Positions 6,561 to 33,265 of a DNA stretch of 64,000 nucleotides are shown piece by piece. Numbering within the stretch: the stretch's first letter is position 1; every line of letters begins with the position of its first letter. A program made the translations under genes and the position numbers. The DNA lies in contig JACQUZ010000053.1 in the NCBI GenBank assembly GCA_016210055.1, positions 1 to 64,000 of the forward strand, read 5' to 3'. Origin of the DNA: Deltaproteobacteria bacterium. GTDB lineage: Bacteria > Myxococcota_A > Polyangia > Haliangiales > SHYZ01. A model generated the notes under the pieces. The model had not been told where the DNA came from. It was given only the letters and a program-made list of their open reading frames with translations, and made no database searches.

Positions 6561-8720
6561 ATGCGTGACTGGTTGTGGGGGCTCCTTCTCGGCCTAGCTT
6601 GCGTTGGATTCGCCTTCCCCAGTGCCGTGCTCGGGCGCCAGTCGCTCGTGCCTGCGGCCGCTCTGGCCGGAGATCCGGCGTTTCGAGCAGGATTCCCCGG
6701 AACGGCGACGCACAAGTCGTGGGATCCGTCGGGAATCCTCGTCCACTACCCAGCCGAGCTCGTCGCAGCGCGAGAGATCCGAAAAGGTCGCCTCCCGCTC
6801 TGGAACCCCCATGCGGGCACGGGGATGCCACTTCTCGCCGAAGCGCATTCCGCTCCCCTCTCCCCCTTCTGGGCACCATTCTGGCTGGCTCCGTCGGAAG
6901 CAACCTACAGCTGGGCCCTGCTCCTGCGTCTCGTCGTGGCTGTCGCGGCTGGACACGTTCTTGCCCGGCGGCGGGGATTGGGATCCATGGCAAGCGCACT
7001 GACCGCTCTAACCTACGGAGTGGGTGGATGCGCGATCACGCGGTTCGATCTTCCTACCGAAGGTACGGCCTACGCGATGCTGCCGTTGTGCGTCTTAGCG
7101 GCCGACAGGGTGGCCGCAAGGGGTGTGCGGGCAATCCCCGTTTTCGCTGCAGCCGTCGGGCTCACGATCTATTCGGCCCATCCAGAGCTCGCGGCGCTGG
7201 CTGGCCTGGGAGCAGTGCTCTTTGCCGCCAGCTCGAGAGGAAGTAGACCTCGGGCATGGATGCACCTTCTCATCGGGCTCGCGCTCGGCGTCGGTCTTGG
7301 CGCGACGGTTGTGGTGCCACTCCTCGATTACCTGGCGTTCTCCGGCTCCACCTACAAGACGAGCGCCCCCTTGGCAGGAATGCTGGTGTCCGACCTCAAG
7401 TACTTCGCGGCAGCGCCAGGTTTCGTGCGAATCGGAGGTGCACCCCTTCTCCTCGCAACCCTGCGTCTCGTGGGCCGACTCCAAGATCAGCCCCGGGGAA
7501 CCTCCGCGGCTCGCGCCCTGGTCGCGGTCGTTGGTGTCGGCGCCGCGCTCTATCTCTCCGAGGCTCTCGCCCCGGGTTATTATCGAATGCTCGTTCCGCC
7601 AAAATACGCGATGTTCCTGGTGGTCCTCGCGGTTGCGCTTCTGGCCGGAGAAGGGCTGGAGCTCGTCGCAGCTGCAAGCCCGGCACGTTTTGCTCTCGCC
7701 ACGGGAATCTCGGCGCTCACGTGGGTGGCGATGGATGCGCTGACCTCGTTCCGACTGCACTCCGAGCCTGGCGTCGTCGTCGGCGACGTGTTGGGAGCGG
7801 CAGCGGTCATTGCGGCGCGTGCCTCGCCACGAGCGGCCACGGTCGCGCGCTGGATGGTTCCCGTCGCGGCCGCAGGCGCGTTCCTTTCCTCGGCCCGGCA
7901 GGTGGTGCTTCCCATGACCGCAGCGATACCAATGCCGCCCGTCGTCCACGCCATCCGCGACCTGGCGCCTGCGCCGGCACGCGTGGCAGGCCTGGGCAAT
8001 GCGCTATTCCCCAATCTTGCCACGCTCCTCGGCTCCTCGGACGCGCGTGCCATGGCGGCCATATTTCCGACCAGGTACCGTGCCTACATGACGCTCGTCG
8101 ACGGAGCGCGATGGTTTCCGACGTTCGTGCTGCTATCCCGTCCCCGGGCCGCCCTCCTGGACCTGATGGGCGCCTCGCTGGTTATCACCCCCCAGGAGCC
8201 CCCGTCGGGATGGGAGGTAGTCGCACGCGACAGCATGGTCACGCTCGCCAGAAATCCCGACGCTGCCCCCAGGGCGTTCGTCCCCCGCGGTCTCACGTTC
8301 GCCTTGGATGCCGCCGACTCCCTTGCCCAGCTCGAACAATTGGCGAAAAGCGCTCGGCTTCCCGACGCGGCGGTGGTCGAAGCGCCCATCGGCGTCGTGC
8401 CCGAGACGTCCACGGGGGGCGAAATCCGGGTGGTCGAGTACCTTCCTTCGAGGGTGGCCCTCGAGTCCGAGATGAAGGAGCCGGGGCTAGTCGTCCTCAC
8501 GGACACTTACCACCCAGGATGGATCGCCACGGTCGATGGAGATGAGTCCGCAGTCTACCCAGTAGACCACCTGTTCCGAGGGGTGGCCGTACCCGCTGGG
8601 AAGCACCGCGTGGTCATGACCTTTGAGCCACCGTCGCTGGACCTTGGCTTGTCGCTATCTGCCTGTGCGCTCATGGCTTGTCTCGCGATGTGGCTCGTCC
8701 CCTGGAGACGAGAACGATGA
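6561..8720 (+). CDS. YfhO-family polytopic membrane protein (putative glycosyltransferase-related)
   Basis: A 719-residue integral membrane protein with a hydrophobic N-terminus (MRDWLWGLLLGLACVGF), about ten membrane segments to roughly residue 450, then a soluble C-terminal domain. The tail is typical of YfhO proteins: TDTYHPGWIATVDG followed by FRGVAVPAGKHRVVM and a final membrane helix. YfhO proteins in Bacillus and Listeria take part in glycosylating wall polymers; the role here is unknown. A GTG at 6528 is possible, but the ATG at 6561 gives a clean membrane start. The stop overlaps the next gene's start (ATGA), so it is coupled to the racemase-like gene. Confidence 0.8.
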   Translation: MRDWLWGLLLGLACVGFAFPSAVLGRQSLVPAAALAGDPAFRAGFPGTATHKSWDPSGILVHYPAELVAAREIRKGRLPLWNPHAGTGMPLLAEAHSAPLSPFWAPFWLAPSEATYSWALLLRLVVAVAAGHVLARRRGLGSMASALTALTYGVGGCAITRFDLPTEGTAYAMLPLCVLAADRVAARGVRAIPVFAAAVGLTIYSAHPELAALAGLGAVLFAASSRGSRPRAWMHLLIGLALGVGLGATVVVPLLDYLAFSGSTYKTSAPLAGMLVSDLKYFAAAPGFVRIGGAPLLLATLRLVGRLQDQPRGTSAARALVAVVGVGAALYLSEALAPGYYRMLVPPKYAMFLVVLAVALLAGEGLELVAAASPARFALATGISALTWVAMDALTSFRLHSEPGVVVGDVLGAAAVIAARASPRAATVARWMVPVAAAGAFLSSARQVVLPMTAAIPMPPVVHAIRDLAPAPARVAGLGNALFPNLATLLGSSDARAMAAIFPTRYRAYMTLVDGARWFPTFVLLSRPRAALLDLMGASLVITPQEPPSGWEVVARDSMVTLARNPDAAPRAFVPRGLTFALDAADSLAQLEQLAKSARLPDAAVVEAPIGVVPETSTGGEIRVVEYLPSRVALESEMKEPGLVVLTDTYHPGWIATVDGDESAVYPVDHLFRGVAVPAGKHRVVMTFEPPSLDLGLSLSACALMACLAMWLVPWRRER

Positions 8721-27333: not shown

Positions 27334-27415
27334 GAGGGTAGCCGCTTGGAGGGTTTCGCCAAGCGGAGCGAGCACAGCTCGGAGGCGTCGCAGGTCTGGA
27401 TGTGGGTCCGATATC

Positions 27416-27431
27416 GGTCTATATTTTGACC
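27416..27431. promoter_or_regulatory. Palindrome over the -10 of the toxin-antitoxin operon
   Basis: GGTC-N8-GACC encloses TATATT (27420-27425), which is placed as a -10 element 18 bases before the antitoxin ATG. Phd/YefM antitoxins usually bind palindromes in their own promoter, so this is a natural operator candidate. Confidence 0.4.
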
Positions 27432-27443
27432 TACAGGTGGACC

Positions 27444-27725
27444 ATGCGGAAATTGCGACTTTCCGGGGACTTCGTTCCGATCAGCGAGTTTAAGGCACAG
27501 GCGGCCGAGTGGCTGCGCAAGGCCGGAGCAACGGGTTCGCCCGTCGTGGTGACCCAAAATGGGAAGCCGGCTGGCGTTCTTCTTTCCCCGAAAGCTTTTG
27601 ACGAGCTAACCGAGCGGGCGAGGTTTGTTATGGCCGTGGAGGAAGGCCTTGCCGACGCCGACGCTGGTCGCGTGCGCTCGCACGCTCAGGTTGCACGCAG
27701 GATGAAGACTCGGTTCGGCGGCTAG
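27444..27725 (+). CDS. Phd/YefM-type antitoxin
   Basis: A 93-residue protein with the antitoxin fold of the prevent-host-death family: FVPISEFKAQAAEWLRKAG, then VVVTQNGKPAGVLLSPKAFDEL (DNA-binding N-terminal half), and a charged helical C-terminus (MAVEEGLADADAGRVRSHAQVARR) that would wrap the toxin. The ATG at 27444 follows CAGGTGG. The ParE-type toxin starts 5 bases after the stop, so the two are one operon. It should neutralise the toxin and autoregulate through the upstream palindrome (family knowledge). Confidence 0.88.
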   Translation: MRKLRLSGDFVPISEFKAQAAEWLRKAGATGSPVVVTQNGKPAGVLLSPKAFDELTERARFVMAVEEGLADADAGRVRSHAQVARRMKTRFGG

Positions 27726-27730
27726 GACGA

Positions 27731-28075
27731 GTGACGACGAAGCGCGCACGCCGTCGAGGGCCAGGCAGGCCGCTCGCAGTCGTCTGGACGGACCGCGCCT
27801 CTGCGGATCTGGAGGCAATCGGAGACTTCATCGCCTCCGACAGCCCCGCAGCGGCGGCCCAGTGGGCCGGCGAGCTCATGGCCGCCGCCGAGCGTGCCGC
27901 GAGCGCGCCCCTTGCGGGACGGCGTGTCCCGGAGCTCGGCCGTGACGACCTTCGCGAGATCTTCAAGCGAACCTACCGGATCGTCTATCGCGTGACGACC
28001 GAGCACATTGAAATCCTCACCGTGTTTGAGGGACACCGGTGGTTTCCGCGGGACGTAGCACGTGACGACAAGTAG
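27731..28075 (+). CDS. RelE/ParE-family toxin
   Basis: A 114-residue basic protein with GTG start at 27731. Family marks are VVWTDRASADLEAIGDFIAS at the N-terminus, VPELGRDDLREIFKRTYRIVYRV in the middle and ILTVFEGHRWFP at the C-terminus, matching the ParE/RelE toxin fold. ParE toxins attack gyrase and RelE toxins cleave mRNA; the sequence alone suggests ParE more than RelE, but this is not decided. The first 15 residues (RRRGPGRP) form a basic extension not usual in the family. The pair lies at the left edge of the AT-richer island. Confidence 0.85.
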   Translation: MTTKRARRRGPGRPLAVVWTDRASADLEAIGDFIASDSPAAAAQWAGELMAAAERAASAPLAGRRVPELGRDDLREIFKRTYRIVYRVTTEHIEILTVFEGHRWFPRDVARDDK

Positions 28076-28116
28076 GCGATCACCTCGACCGCCTCGAGAA
28101 AAACCGTCCACCTTGC

Positions 28117-28521
28117 CTAAACCCGGTCGGAAGGCATAGGGTGGCAACCGCTTGGGTGGGTTAGTTTCCGAGCGACCAAGTGGATCAGTTTATGAGCGGC
28201 GGGATCAGGGCGGCATTCTTCCACCACGACTAGGTGCGGCTTAAGAAGCGGAGGATTAGTTTGCCACTTCTTCGTCGTAACGGTTTTCGCACACGGATCA
28301 TCGACCTCTTCATACCATCCATAGGCGTTGAACTTGTTGGGCTTGTTGTACATGGTTTCCCAATACCAAGGATCCGACTCCTTGTAGCGCTCCCAGTTTT
28401 GGGCAGAGCGCCGTGATTCGCATAGCGAATTGGCTATCGAGATCCGCCCGCAGCTAGGGCCGCTGCACGTGTAGTTGAGGCAGGAATAAATAAAGGTCGG
28501 TCTATGGCCTTGTGGAGTTCG
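28117..28521 (-). pseudogene. Open frame without a proper start, possible gene remnant
   Basis: A 134-codon frame free of stops, with its only ATG at 28353. The protein-like stretch begins well upstream of that ATG (FIYSCLNYTCSGPSC, then SAQNWERYKESDPWYWET) and continues as MYNKPNKFNAYGWYEEVDDP, rich in Trp, Tyr and Asn like the island genes. Its upstream part lies inside the 3' end of the next gene in another frame. It may be the remnant of a gene joined to, or frameshifted from, that neighbour. No family recognised. Its downstream end runs into the IS21-like repeats. Confidence 0.3.
28157..28191. repeat. Paired TGGRTYAGTTT direct repeats, possible IS21-type terminus
   Basis: TGGGTTAGTTT (28157-28167) and TGGATCAGTTT (28181-28191) are spaced 24 bases apart, followed by GCGGCGGGATCAGG. 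Multiple short TGGGTCAGTTT-like repeats near the end are characteristic of IS21-family elements. No istA or istB coding remnant is seen nearby, so this would be only a relict end. It lies in a 358-base stretch (28076-28433) with no certain gene. Confidence 0.35.
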
Positions 28522-29120
28522 TCAAGATAGCTCTGCTTGAAAAGCTCGAGTTGCCATGGTGCCAAGATCTTTTCCGCTTCGCGCAAGGTCGATTCTTGAA
28601 TCGAATTAAACGAAGAAAAAAGAGCACTACGGCTATCCAAATATGCGGCTTCTCGTTTAGACGAATTCTCGGCACGCATTCCATATTGGGTGAGGATTTC
28701 GTTATACCAATTCGTATCCTCTTGCCAACTCCGCGCCGCATTCTCCTGCGCATCAGCCAGAAGACGAAAAATCGCTTGCTCCTGCACTGGGTCAAGACGA
28801 GCTTGCTCAACGAATCTTTGAACCGTATTAACAAGTCGAACGCGAACCTTGTATTCGATCTCACTTTCCGTTTCTTGGCGCGGTCCCTCAACCAACGAGA
28901 GGCGCGAATCGTCAGATCGCGGCGGCAACGCGCCCGAAAACCGCGCTACCTGCGTGTGCGTGCTAGCTAGCTCGACGCCTATCGGCGGGCGCTGTTCATC
29001 GGATCCGACTTGCAAGCTGCCCATTGCCGAATGCTCAAAGCGACTGAATGACCGCATCGCGAAATAGGTGATCGCCAAGCAAGCTGCTGGAATAAAAAAC
29101 CACGTGATCCCTCGACGCAT
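28434..29120 (-). CDS. Hypothetical membrane-anchored protein of the island
   Basis: A 228-residue protein with an N-terminal membrane anchor (ITWFFIPAACLAITYFAM) and a helical periplasmic domain: VNTVQRFVEQARLDPVQEQA, LADAQENAARSWQED, EAEKILAPWQLELFKQSYLDEL. The Pro-x-Gln elements (LDPVQ, LAPWQ) resemble LTxxQ-type periplasmic helical proteins, but no family is certain. ATG at 29120 has AAGGAGG five bases upstream. It lies 11 bases after the exported Cys-rich protein and is probably co-transcribed. Base composition is clearly lower in GC than flanking genes, indicating transfer. Confidence 0.6.
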   Translation of the reverse strand: MRRGITWFFIPAACLAITYFAMRSFSRFEHSAMGSLQVGSDEQRPPIGVELASTHTQVARFSGALPPRSDDSRLSLVEGPRQETESEIEYKVRVRLVNTVQRFVEQARLDPVQEQAIFRLLADAQENAARSWQEDTNWYNEILTQYGMRAENSSKREAAYLDSRSALFSSFNSIQESTLREAEKILAPWQLELFKQSYLDELHKAIDRPLFIPASTTRAAALAAGGSR

Positions 29121-29131
29121 CGTATCCTCCT

Positions 29132-30037
29132 TCAACGCCTACACTTGCCATTGGCTAGTTTTGTGGCGCGATCGTCGACGCACTGTTCATAGGTTTCCAA
29201 GCATTCGTTGGCCTTCTTTTGTTTCCTTTCCGTGCATAACTGATTCATCCCCTTTCCGCCAGGGGTTGTTATTGTTAATGAGGTGCCATCCGTTGTGATC
29301 GTACCGCTTGCATACGAGCCGCTCAGGCTAGGAGACTGAACATTCAAGTCACCAGGAAGTTTTTTCTGAATACCCCCGCTATTATAGGTGATGGTTTCAA
29401 CTTGGCTACGACCAGTCGATGAGTTCTGCTGTCGCGCCACGGTATCCAAGCCTACCGTCCAGCTCTCGATGCAGTGATTATCATCGAGATACTTCGTTTC
29501 AAACTTTTCGCAGGTTCCGGAGGGGGGATTGAGCTGAGTTTGCACGCTAGGACAGCTCCAGACCCATTCCCACGTAACCTTGTTTCTCACATAGCGGCAT
29601 GCTGACTTGCCCTTAACGCAGTATCTGATCTCACGGATCTGAGCAGCCCGGCCATCGAATCTTTCTTTGTACTTATGGCACATCTCTTCCGCAAGCTCGG
29701 CCACGAACGTAAAACAATCACTCGTGTCCTTGGCCGCATCTTTGGCGCACTGCAAGCGATTCGCCTCACACGGTTCACATGGTGGCTTGGAACTTGTGCC
29801 ACCTCCACCACCTGCTCCCCCCGACGATGCAGTTGAACCACCCTGAGTATCCACTCCTCCGCCTTGTCCTGGGTAGTTCTTCCATTCGGGAATGTATGGC
29901 GGTTCCTGAATGCAGATAACCTCGCCGTCGGGTGGTTGCGGACAATCAGGATCATCATCGTCCCGCGCCTGAGCGTAATCCCCCGCAAGAAGTCCCGCTG
30001 CAAATCCAGGTATAACGAGCATGGCCCATCGATGCAT
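29132..30037 (-). CDS. Cys-rich exported protein with GWKNYP-type N-terminus (long copy)
   Basis: A 301-residue exported protein with a signal peptide (LVIPGFAAGLLAGDYAQA). The mature protein has an acidic start (RDDDDPDCPQPPDGEVIC), an EWKNYPGQGGG block, a Gly/Ser-rich linker (SSGGAGGGGGTSS) and a Cys-rich domain (PPCEPCEANRLQCAKD, SDCF, EEMCHKY, YCVKGKSACRY), then a C-terminal half of beta-type sequence ending in CLETYEQCVDD. At least 14 cysteines suggest disulfides. ATG at 30037 has AAGGAGG upstream. It is divergent from an RHH-type gene. A shorter homologue lies at 30290-30799. No known family recognised. Confidence 0.65.
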   Translation of the reverse strand: MHRWAMLVIPGFAAGLLAGDYAQARDDDDPDCPQPPDGEVICIQEPPYIPEWKNYPGQGGGVDTQGGSTASSGGAGGGGGTSSKPPCEPCEANRLQCAKDAAKDTSDCFTFVAELAEEMCHKYKERFDGRAAQIREIRYCVKGKSACRYVRNKVTWEWVWSCPSVQTQLNPPSGTCEKFETKYLDDNHCIESWTVGLDTVARQQNSSTGRSQVETITYNSGGIQKKLPGDLNVQSPSLSGSYASGTITTDGTSLTITTPGGKGMNQLCTERKQKKANECLETYEQCVDDRATKLANGKCRR

Positions 30038-30074
30038 CCCTGCCTCCTTCGCCGCTACTACGAGCGACAGCAAA

Positions 30075-30110
30075 GCAAGCGCGTGGAGTATCACGCTTGC
30101 AGGGCAAGCG
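30075..30110. promoter_or_regulatory. Three GCAAGCG sites between divergent island genes
   Basis: GCAAGCG occurs at 30075-30081 and 30104-30110 and, inverted as CGCTTGC, at 30094-30100. They lie in the 91-base gap between the exported-protein start (30037, minus) and the RHH gene start (30129, plus). Ribbon-helix-helix proteins typically bind clustered short sites as dimers of dimers, so this is a plausible operator set for the adjacent regulator. Confidence 0.45.
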
Positions 30111-30128
30111 GCAGAGGGAAAAATATAT

Positions 30129-30356
30129 ATGTTTCTACACAGCAGCGAAAAGAGGGCGGAAAACGCTCAGGCGAGTAGAATCACCAGCGTGCAGAAAGAG
30201 GAAAAAGAGAAGAAGACCAAGGCGCGCAAGAAACGCCTTTTGCTCGACATCTCTCCGGAGCTCCATCGGGAGGTGAAGGTGCGGGCAGCTCAGAAGGACA
30301 TGTCGATCCGTGAGTTTGTAGTCCAGGCGCTTGAGAAGGAACTCAGGAAGGGATGA
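30129..30356 (+). CDS. Ribbon-helix-helix (CopG/Arc-like) DNA-binding protein, copy 1
   Basis: A 75-residue basic protein. The C-terminal 43 residues form an RHH motif: RLLLDISPELHREVKVRAAQ (beta strand and helix A) then KDMSIREFVVQALEKELRK (helix B). The N-terminus is a lysine-rich stretch (KEEKEKKTKARKK). ATG at 30129 is the first reasonable start; a GTG at 30190 inside the lysine stretch is an alternative. Probably represses itself and the divergent exported-protein operon through the GCAAGCG sites. It could also be an antitoxin, but no toxin gene adjoins it. Its 3' end overlaps the end of the minus-strand short copy. Confidence 0.65.
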   Translation: MFLHSSEKRAENAQASRITSVQKEEKEKKTKARKKRLLLDISPELHREVKVRAAQKDMSIREFVVQALEKELRKG

Positions 30357-30799
30357 AACCTACGAGGTTGTCGGCCAGCGACGGAAGAACACGCCAGAAT
30401 GTTTTCCTTGTCTGTCGGAGCGGCCGTGTCCCTGCAAAAGCTGTATTCCGTATTCCGGTCCTGGAGGCACTGTTGCAGTTTCTGCATGCACGCCTTGCAA
30501 CGTGGGCTATTCGGCCCCGTAGCTGGCCCACCACCGCCACGTCCTCCCCCTGTGCCAGGGGGATCGGACGTTCCTTGTCCGTCACGATTTCCGGTTCCTC
30601 CTCGAGCAACCGGGTAATTCTTCCACTCGGGAGTCCAGGATTCCACTATCGTGATCGTCTCATCGCCGAAGCAATAGTACTCCTCCACAGTCGGGCACTG
30701 ATCGCCGTCAATCGGCTCCTTCTTCATCGACCATGCGTCACCTCGCACGAGAGCAACGAGCACGACAGCTACAATCATGTTCTCGATTATTTGCCCCAT
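30290..30799 (-). CDS. Cys-rich exported protein (short, apparently truncated copy)
   Basis: A 169-residue homologue of the protein at 29132-30037. Shared features are a hydrophobic N-terminus (IIENMIVAVVLVALVRG), EWKNYP, a Gly-rich linker (TGGGRGGGG) and the CKACMQKLQQCLQD cysteine block. After ENILACSS the similarity stops and the last 35 residues (GRQPRRFHPFLSS...) read through the 3' end of the convergent RHH gene, so the C-terminal half seen in the long copy is missing. It may be a decayed paralogue or a short natural variant. ATG at 30799 has AAGGAGG nine bases upstream; a TTG lies just before it. Confidence 0.55.
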   Translation of the reverse strand: MGQIIENMIVAVVLVALVRGDAWSMKKEPIDGDQCPTVEEYYCFGDETITIVESWTPEWKNYPVARGGTGNRDGQGTSDPPGTGGGRGGGGPATGPNSPRCKACMQKLQQCLQDRNTEYSFCRDTAAPTDKENILACSSVAGRQPRRFHPFLSSFSSAWTTNSRIDMSF

Positions 30800-30828
30800 C
30801 AACCACGCCTCCTTGGCTACTCATGCGA

Positions 30829-30900
30829 GTGCTAGCTAAGCAGGCGATGGGTAGCACGCACGACCTCCGAGCTTCAACAGAAAAACACGCGTGCGCGCAC
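30829..30900. promoter_or_regulatory. Inverted repeats between second divergent island pair
   Basis: The 148-base gap between the short exported-protein copy and the second RHH-type gene holds GTGCTA (30829-30834) facing TAGCAC (30852-30857), CACGCGTG (30886-30893) and GTGCGCGCAC (30891-30900), the last two perfect palindromes that overlap. They differ in sequence from the GCAAGCG sites of the first pair but occupy the same position, as expected if each RHH protein has its own operator. Confidence 0.4.
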
Positions 30901-30947
30901 AGCTAAAAACACCCGCGTTCTCGGTGGAGCTACACTCGGACTTCCGA

Positions 30948-31184
30948 ATGCCGAAGGAGACAGGCACCGCGACAACAAAGCGACCGAGAGGGCGGCCGAA
31001 AGGCCCTCCAAAATCTACGCTTACCTTTCGCTTGTCTGATGACAGGATCGAGACGCTCTATAGGCTCTCCGAGGAGATGGGCGTAACCATGACGAAGATC
31101 CTCGAAAGCGCGATCGATCGGATCGACGAGGTCCACCGCAAGCATCCGGAGGAGAGCTTCCGGAAGCTGTTCAAGAGGTTCTAA
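30948..31184 (+). CDS. Ribbon-helix-helix-type DNA-binding protein with AT-hook-like arm, copy 2
   Basis: A 78-residue protein with a basic AT-hook-like segment (KRPRGRPKGPP, core RGRPKG) followed by an RHH-type fold: STLTFRLSDDRIETLYRLSE and MTKILESAIDRIDEVHR, with C-terminal KLFKRF. The strand TLTFRLSDD and helix pattern resemble Arc/CopG proteins. ATG at 30948 is chosen. It is divergent from the short Cys-rich exported protein, repeating the arrangement of copy 1. Regulation of its neighbour is inference; it has little sequence identity with copy 1 outside the fold. Confidence 0.6.
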   Translation: MPKETGTATTKRPRGRPKGPPKSTLTFRLSDDRIETLYRLSEEMGVTMTKILESAIDRIDEVHRKHPEESFRKLFKRF

Positions 31185-31333
31185 GACGCGTCCCCGACTT
31201 TCGCCGATACTCCCGCACCAGGGAGCGCTCCTCCCAGAAGCCACGATTATTAAGGGACTCTAGTCGACTAAAATCCGCCTATTTCGCTAGTAATTTTGCA
31301 AACTTACAGCTTCGCCTGATGTCTCCCCCCCCT

Positions 31334-33265
31334 CTACCGCCGATACACCCGCACGAGCGACGCGCCCTGGGCCGTCACTTCATAGACGAGCCGCGCGTCG
31401 TCAGGGACACCGAATGTGCCGCGCCCCGTGAGGGCGTGGGCCATCTTTCCGAGATCGTTTTCCACGATCCAATCCGCGTCGTCCGGGCGCGAGTCGCCCC
31501 ATAGGTCCTCGCGCAGCCAGTTGAGGTGGATGGGTTGAAGCACGCGGTAGACGGTGTCGGACGGCGAGGCGTGCTGGTTCACGTAGCGAATCGCCGCTGC
31601 GATACCCTCGCCCCACCAGCCCACCTCGAACCAGCGGCGGCTCGCCACGGTCCTTGGGCCTCCGACGTGCTCGCCGTAGTAATCGAGGTAGAAGGGCCAT
31701 ATCCGCGCGCACGTGACGGTCATGTAAAGGCCGGCTGCTGCGGCAAGCACCCACCCCGCACGCGGCCTCATCGCGCTCATGGCCTGGCATAGCCCAGCGC
31801 CCGCCATGAGCGCGAGCGGAACAAGGGCAGGAAGCACGTAGCGCACGCCATCCTGGCGCACGGGTGAAAACACGACACCGAGCGGCGCCAAGAGCCACGC
31901 CACCACGAGGACCCACCCCTTCTCTCTCCTCGAAATGGCGCGCCAGCCGCCAAGGAGGAACGCGCATGCGAGGAGACCCAAGGGCGCGGTGGCGAGGAGG
32001 TAGGCGGGAAAATAGTGCCAATCAGGCCGCTGGATGATCTCGCCCAAGTATTGCTCTGGGAGGTGCTGCCTCCTTAAGACGCGCCACGCCGCGTGGAGGT
32101 TGCTCTCCGGTGAGCTCCACATGCGGGGCCAACTCAAGACGAACGTGAGGCCCGCGGTGACTGGCACGAGGACCGCGCCGCGGAGCATTGCTCTCTTGCG
32201 CTCGCCGCGCTTAGCGCATGCGAACACCACCACTCCAACCAAAGGAGCGAGAAGGAGGTTCGAGAACCTCGTCGCCATCGCGAGCCCCAGCGCGACGCCT
32301 ACCCAGGCCACGCTCCATTTCCGGGACGACTCACGAACCCCCAGCCAGACGGCGAGGGTCCAGAAGAACACCGACGGAGCCTCGTGACCGACCACCTTGT
32401 CGTGGGCGATGAGCCTGGGCGTGAGGGCGCAGAAGATCCCGGCCAGGAGCCCTGCGCGGGCTCCAAGCAGGCGAGAGCCGATCGCGACCACCAAGGCAGA
32501 CGTGCCTGCCCCGAGGAGCGCGAACAGGCCGCGCGCCACGCCGTAGCCGTCTTGCCAAAGCGCCCCGAGCCCCGCGATGTACTTGGTGACGGGAGGATGC
32601 TCGTAGTTCCAACGCCATGAGGATGGGCGAAAGTCGAGGGAGAGCAGGTTGATCAAGTAGTTCCGGCCGGAGGACCAGTACTCGTCCTCGTCCCAGGTCT
32701 GACCCGCCGCAGAGAGGCCTACCAAGCGCACGGCGAGGGCAAGCGCGAGCACCGCAAGGCATGGGGCGGCCGCTCGCCAGCTGATGGGCCACGCAAGGAC
32801 GCCCAGCACCGCCAGGACTACGAGCAGGATCGCGGTGGCGATGGCGGCATCACCCCAAGACGCTCCCACGTCCGGTCCAAACCGCGCTCGCTCAGGCGGA
32901 TCGGGCGAGAGCGACGACGGCGGGACGTACTCCGGGGCGCCGCGCCTCCCAGGCGGATGCCAGAGAAGGCGTGACGCGGCGGGACCCCGAAAGACCACCG
33001 CGTGGGGCCCCGGTGGGAAGATGACGCGCGCCTTGACCTCGCCGCTGCCAGCGGCGACCTCTCGCCCGTCGATCAGGAGCTCCGCAGGCCCATCGGCCTC
33101 GAACCCGAGGATGTAAGGACCACCACGGGGGAAGTACCAAGATCCGGTCCGCGAATCCCCGTCCTGGTGCAGGCGATCGAGGGGCTCCACCGCGATGCCT
33201 CGCCGGAGTGCCAGGAGCCCTGCGATGAGAAGGACGGACCCCAGGACCACTTGCCATTTCTTCAC
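31334..33265 (-). CDS. GT39/ArnT-like polytopic glycosyltransferase
   Basis: A 643-residue membrane protein. After one N-terminal helix there is a periplasmic domain (about 30-150), then about ten membrane helices with the catalytic loop GQTWDEDEYWSSGRN (acidic pair of GT-C enzymes) and WNYEHPPVTKYIAGLGALW typical of GT39/GT83-type dolichyl- or polyprenyl-phosphate sugar transferases. The GTG at 33265 overlaps the upstream stop as GTGA; the frame continuing to 33475 is only a shadow of that gene. Third of three coupled genes. It probably transfers a lipid-linked sugar to an envelope acceptor; the acceptor is unknown. Confidence 0.8.
   Translation of the reverse strand: MKKWQVVLGSVLLIAGLLALRRGIAVEPLDRLHQDGDSRTGSWYFPRGGPYILGFEADGPAELLIDGREVAAGSGEVKARVIFPPGPHAVVFRGPAASRLLWHPPGRRGAPEYVPPSSLSPDPPERARFGPDVGASWGDAAIATAILLVVLAVLGVLAWPISWRAAAPCLAVLALALAVRLVGLSAAGQTWDEDEYWSSGRNYLINLLSLDFRPSSWRWNYEHPPVTKYIAGLGALWQDGYGVARGLFALLGAGTSALVVAIGSRLLGARAGLLAGIFCALTPRLIAHDKVVGHEAPSVFFWTLAVWLGVRESSRKWSVAWVGVALGLAMATRFSNLLLAPLVGVVVFACAKRGERKRAMLRGAVLVPVTAGLTFVLSWPRMWSSPESNLHAAWRVLRRQHLPEQYLGEIIQRPDWHYFPAYLLATAPLGLLACAFLLGGWRAISRREKGWVLVVAWLLAPLGVVFSPVRQDGVRYVLPALVPLALMAGAGLCQAMSAMRPRAGWVLAAAAGLYMTVTCARIWPFYLDYYGEHVGGPRTVASRRWFEVGWWGEGIAAAIRYVNQHASPSDTVYRVLQPIHLNWLREDLWGDSRPDDADWIVENDLGKMAHALTGRGTFGVPDDARLVYEVTAQGASLVRVYRR

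Follow-up and report, generated by a model that had tools for sequence, protein, structure and literature searches.

A cysteine-rich exported protein and a membrane-anchored LTXXQ-like protein encoded in tandem in a deltaproteobacterial genome: a possible client-chaperone pair

The 64,000-nucleotide stretch of Deltaproteobacteria bacterium DNA analysed here (positions 1 to 64,000 of JACQUZ010000053.1; "the window") is part of contig C28 of the genome that we searched, a 5.43-Mb draft in 180 contigs. Its minus strand exhibits a gene for a cysteine-rich exported protein (29132..30037, 301 amino acids), followed 11 nucleotides downstream by a gene for a 228-amino-acid membrane-anchored protein of the LTXXQ type (28434..29120; predicted Spy/CpxP/CnrX fold, hereafter P0004). 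We give about an even chance to the reading that these two genes constitute an export operon, encoding a disulfide-rich secreted protein and its dedicated, tethered periplasmic chaperone. The four open reading frames (ORFs) named in an initial annotation of this DNA are all present at the coordinates it gave. That annotation recognised the exported protein gene, but overlooked the LTXXQ gene behind it and associated the exported protein instead with a divergent ribbon-helix-helix (RHH) gene.

The Cys-rich protein, defined by ORF calls and by its paralogue on contig C180, starts with a Sec signal peptide, cleavage being likely after AQA (residue 24). The mature protein contains 16 cysteines: two in an N-terminal piece that also carries the EWKNYP motif, and 14 in a C-terminal part beyond a Gly/Ser-rich linker. 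The C180 paralogue is the sole full-length homologue in the genome (36% identity over residues 22-300, E-value = 8e-40). When the two full-length copies are aligned, all 16 mature cysteines coincide, although identity is only 33-36%. In a protein with a signal peptide, complete conservation of cysteines that are even in number points to disulfide formation, and the 16 residues probably form eight such bonds. Searches of Pfam, NCBIfam, PHROGs, PADLOC and the PDB gave noise alone, in agreement with the initial annotation, which recognised no family for the exported protein. A papillomavirus E2 match (0.016) and low-complexity PDB matches were rejected as noise. Structure prediction reached a predicted local distance difference test (pLDDT) score of 35, and the model was not used.

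The 11-nt gap between the two genes (29121..29131, minus strand) contains an AAGGAGG ribosome-binding site, an arrangement that suggests translational coupling. The downstream product P0004 belongs to a group of four proteins in the genome (P0004-P0007), all of which exhibit two LTxxQ-type motifs: LDPVQ/LAPWQ in P0004, LTPEQ/LTPEQ in P0005, LSPDQ/LDDTQ in P0006 and LTPDQ/LTERQ in P0007. P0005, encoded on C180, matches positions 7-97 of the 100 positions of the Pfam family PF07813 (E-value = 1.7e-4), scoring 22.7 bits when searched alone and 24.8 bits in the whole-genome search, against a curated cut-off of 24.3; the Pfam search gave no PF07813 match for P0004 and P0006. P0005 also exhibits a weak match to the E. 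coli Spy model (E-value = 0.0045), and a profile built from the four LTXXQ sequences retrieves Spy chains among its best PDB matches, each of them weak (0.07-0.3). Single-sequence AlphaFold2 modelling of P0004 places a transmembrane helix first, then a disordered stretch of about 50 residues, then a block of four helices (85-107, 111-145, 150-185 and 188-206; pLDDT of the block mostly 68-92). In this model LDPVQ lies at the first helix junction (1/2) and LAPWQ at the last (3/4); the LTXXQ motifs of Spy are located at the corresponding junctions. Among the top Foldseek matches of the model are Spy, CnrX, CpxP and the Spy-like STV, with target TM-scores of 0.42-0.57 and probabilities of 0.35-0.96 for the best chains. 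Sequence, model and Foldseek results combined, including those for the paralogue P0005, make the assignment of P0004 to the Spy/CpxP/CnrX-type LTXXQ proteins moderately firm.

At both full-length loci, C28 and C180, the Cys-rich gene comes first and the LTXXQ gene follows after 11 nt. On C180 the P0005 gene is directly followed by a second, more distant LTXXQ gene. Within the group, P0004 and P0005 pair with a Z-score of 23.7, and P0006 and P0007 with one of 26.4. The best score of P0004 is with P0005, and both follow a Cys-rich gene. This pattern is suggestive of duplication of the Cys-rich and LTXXQ genes as one unit. The split into subtypes is itself suggestive rather than sharp, because P0005 is almost equally close to P0007 (see below).

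P0007, encoded on contig C157, sits behind other exported proteins, one of which has an HExxH-like motif and another a weak match to TSP3. Upstream, the C180 and C157 operons have in common a promoter-like element, GTGTGnCCnCCCGCACCCTCC ... TTGAC ... CCTGsCCCCTAAAC, located at 4948-5032 of L013 (C157) and at 3-82 of L010 (C180), in each case before an exported-protein/LTXXQ operon. The gapped pattern containing GTGTGnCCnCCCGCACCCTCC has exactly two occurrences in the genome, these two sites, and all other genome matches to its first half have at least three mismatches. As the pattern was itself derived from these sites, the result is one of sharing by the C180 and C157 operons; the element is probably a common promoter. 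The C157 exported gene at 5084-7449 of L013 seems to be frameshifted near 6700-6850, its downstream frame carrying HEGAH (HExxH-like) and a Cys-rich tail, with no Pfam match.

In the chaperone reading, the first gene would yield a Sec-exported protein with 16 conserved cysteines and eight disulfides. The second gene, translationally coupled to it, would provide a four-helix LTXXQ protein held at the inner membrane by its transmembrane helix and flexible linker. The tethered protein would bind the emerging, not-yet-oxidised Cys-rich protein and prevent its aggregation or mis-pairing, and the folded client would then be released for secretion or surface display. Several points weigh against this reading. 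P0004 itself has no PF07813 match above the cut-off, and all of its Foldseek E-values exceed 0.2. The fold of the Cys-rich protein is not predictable at the pLDDT obtained. The P0005-P0007 Z-score of 22.8 nearly reaches that of P0004 with P0005, so that subtype pairing is not clear-cut. The type B LTXXQ protein on C157 follows unrelated exported proteins, and the group is therefore not tied to one type of client. The Cys-rich/LTXXQ pairs number two in all, both in one genome, with no independent recurrence. Finally, LTXXQ proteins serve not only as chaperones but also as stress or metal sensors.

A different explanation places the LTXXQ protein among the envelope sensors or modulators exemplified by CpxP, CnrX and ZraP; the Cys-rich protein would then be its output, dealing with stress or metals. 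The transmembrane-anchored CnrX is indeed among the Foldseek matches. In addition, LTXXQ genes in relatives of the same order often encode His-rich proteins or, in several cases, lie behind an apparent sigma factor/anti-sigma pair (read from the upstream ORFs, with no family search). However, the His, Met and Cys positions do not coincide among the four LTXXQ proteins of this genome, which thus present no conserved ligand set as in the CnrX/ZraP metal sensors and make a sensor role less likely. Nor do these loci show a sigma or anti-sigma gene; the LTXXQ gene stands there tightly behind the gene for an exported protein. We consider the sensor explanation unlikely.

Upstream of the C28 operon lies a second, truncated Cys-rich gene (30290..30799, minus strand, 169 amino acids). 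The relationship of the two exported proteins, proposed in the initial annotation, is borne out by BLASTP (E-value = 5e-6) and by a Smith-Waterman alignment with the linker masked (81 against 29 +/- 5 for shuffled sequences, reached in 0/500). Both carry EWKNYP as described, and both carry the cysteine block, although its spacing has to be corrected to C-x2-C-x6-C-x10-C in the two proteins. The homologous part of the second copy (30434-30799) ends at the sixth cysteine, C122 (~30434). The remaining tail (30290-30433) is unrelated and overlaps the 3' end of the RHH gene RHH1 in antisense. A search of all frames for the lost C-terminal part found nothing, and the second copy has no LTXXQ gene behind it. 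The earlier description of the module as twice repeated thus holds for the 5' half of the exported gene but not beyond it, the second copy being truncated. The simplest reading of the second Cys-rich gene is that of a partial duplicate that has decayed.

The duplication extends into the leaders. A 55-bp block preceding the first Cys-rich gene (30042..30096, minus strand) is homologous to one preceding the second copy (30807..30859, minus strand), with an alignment score of 46 against 22.9 +/- 4.1 for shuffled sequences (0/1000 reach it). The promoter region is therefore duplicated; given the homologous 5' half, the duplication on C28 took in both the leader and the 5' half of the exported gene. 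An inverted repeat, GCAAGCG..CGCTTGC (30075-30100), not significant alone, is largely overlapped by the 55-bp block and could be an operator. The duplicated leaders are now flanked by different RHH genes.

Those two RHH genes, on the plus strand, are of unequal standing. RHH1 (30129..30356, 75 amino acids) is of the HicB/Arc type (PF05534, 3e-7) and scores above the Pfam HicB cut-off (30.7 against 21 bits), which bears out the RHH type given in the initial annotation, but RHH2 (30948..31184, 78 amino acids) is weakly CopG/RHH_1-like and remains below threshold (14.8 against 21.6 bits). Among PHROGs, RHH1 matches an Arc-like repressor (1.3e-7) and RHH2 a repressor (1.4e-5). BLASTP gave no alignment between them, and no homologue of RHH1 was found in the other 32 genomes of the order that were searched. 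RHH1 is a putative local regulator or orphan antitoxin.

Under the initial annotation's proposal, RHH gene and exported protein would form the module; the RHH protein could then be an autorepressor or antitoxin-like partner. The part of that proposal concerning arrangement stands: both C28 Cys-rich genes are divergent from an RHH-type gene across the homologous 55-bp leader. The part concerning a functional unit does not. RHH1 and RHH2 are unrelated in sequence. At C180 the only other full-length homologue adjoins an LTXXQ gene, the 122 bp that can be read upstream of it, up to the contig end, hold no RHH gene, and no RHH gene lies near the related C157 operon. The neighbour that both full-length copies have in common is thus the LTXXQ gene. 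In a type II toxin-antitoxin system an RHH antitoxin and a cytoplasmic toxin would share one co-directional operon, whereas here the genes facing the RHH genes run divergently and their products have signal peptides; the exported proteins are not type II toxin-antitoxin toxins, and no PADLOC match rose above noise. An RHH-centred module is accordingly quite unlikely, and the divergent RHH genes at C28 would do no more than regulate the duplicated leader locally.

Recurrence of the RHH/exported protein pair in myxobacterial genomes, the test set in the initial annotation, was not observed. Outside this genome itself, the exported protein has no homologue in 379 genomes of the phylum or 318 of the class, nor do Cys-rich relatives appear in 95 genomes of relatives or in GTDB contigs, plasmids or viral contigs; distant relatives would be missed in the GTDB and viral scans because these used short peptide patterns. 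Five weak class-level profile matches were rejected, three lying in wrong frames of other genes or in Gly-rich stretches and two carrying stop codons. Among order relatives, no LTXXQ gene follows a gene for a Cys-rich exported protein. The Cys-rich family is thus an orphan seen in one genome, attached to the known LTXXQ superfamily, an unusual but narrow situation; it is new to the libraries searched, and its one-genome range limits the weight that can rest on it. Orphan status is usual among lineage-specific surface or spore-coat type proteins, and the Gly-rich linkers and many cysteines would suit such structural proteins, with the LTXXQ neighbour being structural as well, for instance by anchoring a surface layer in the membrane; the two LTXXQ genes in a row on C180 fit this idea. 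Yet chaperones and sensors are the best-known carriers of the LTXXQ fold, and no repeat or sorting signal was seen in the Cys-rich protein. We regard a structural role for the pair as rather improbable.

The region is an AT-richer island, as first described (GC content of 0.53-0.57 per kb against 0.60-0.69 elsewhere). The horizontal gain proposed for it is less well founded. Low GC is common to all three LTXXQ operons of the genome (GC at third codon positions, GC3, of 0.52-0.69), and in the C180 and C157 operons GC3 is 0.59-0.69 against 0.80-0.81 in the neighbouring genes measured on these two contigs; AT-richness is therefore weak evidence of such gain, although it is real, as are the repeats resembling an insertion sequence (IS) end. 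The possible IS21-type end of the initial annotation corresponds to two adjacent 19-bp IS21-end-like repeats (28156-28174 and 28180-28198). They lie within debris downstream of the operon, where there is also a start-less Trp/Cys-rich open frame at 28117-28515 of the minus strand (CLNYTCSGPSC...; CLNYTCSGPSCGRISIANS...). This frame matches no Pfam or other family and may be the truncated end of a different gene.

The surroundings bear further traces. A Phd/YefM antitoxin (PF02604, 3e-16) and ParE toxin (PF05016, 3e-17) pair adjoins the island at 27402-28075 of the window (plus strand). On the other side, the 3' end of a mannosyltransferase gene is repeated at 79% identity, 136 bp apart (31192-31224 and 31328-31360 of the window). 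Between these copies lies an 82-bp repeat (31224-31306) with one more copy on contig C67 (81%), neither copy falling within the annotated main ORFs; apart from this repeat, no DNA-level copies of the region occur elsewhere in the genome. The IS21-end-like repeats, the Phd/ParE pair and the partly repeated 3' end of the mannosyltransferase gene show that this spot has undergone rearrangement. No transposase was found, and Rfam and tRNA searches gave no match. The mannosyltransferase gene and the gene on its far side are kept in six relatives, where no clean empty site is readable because nothing on the island side is conserved.

P0004 resembles Spy and CpxP of E. coli (PF07813) in its predicted four-helix layout, which has an LxxxQ motif at each of the helix 1/2 and 3/4 junctions. 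Those two E. coli proteins are soluble, general, stand-alone periplasmic proteins, not paired with one client; the C28 protein, in contrast, is transmembrane-anchored with a long linker and operon-linked to an exported protein. CnrX, a Cupriavidus metal sensor, likewise has a transmembrane-anchored LTXXQ-type domain (Foldseek target TM-score ~0.55), but P0004 lacks conserved metal ligands and adjoining sigma/anti-sigma genes. Another parallel is provided by the steric foldases of the LipH type, which consist of a transmembrane helix, a disordered linker (usually 30-55 residues) and a helical chaperone domain; the foldase gene shares an operon with its secreted client, and the tether stops co-secretion with it (PMC13381987). 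P0004 has the same layout of transmembrane anchor, ~50-residue disordered linker and helical domain, and its gene comes directly after that of the exported client. This likeness to Lif/LipH supports a similar way of working and not family membership: the client is no lipase, the helical domain differs, and the Pfam lipase-chaperone family has no LTXXQ-protein match at E-values up to 5. A more specific reading, which we consider less likely than not, is that a Spy-like domain became membrane-tethered and came to serve as a one-client foldase for an eight-disulfide secreted protein, an independent counterpart of the lipase/Lif system in a lineage-specific operon family. If the chaperone reading is true, the Spy/CpxP fold has been recruited as a dedicated chaperone accompanying one disulfide-rich exported protein, in a small client-chaperone pair that is directly testable.

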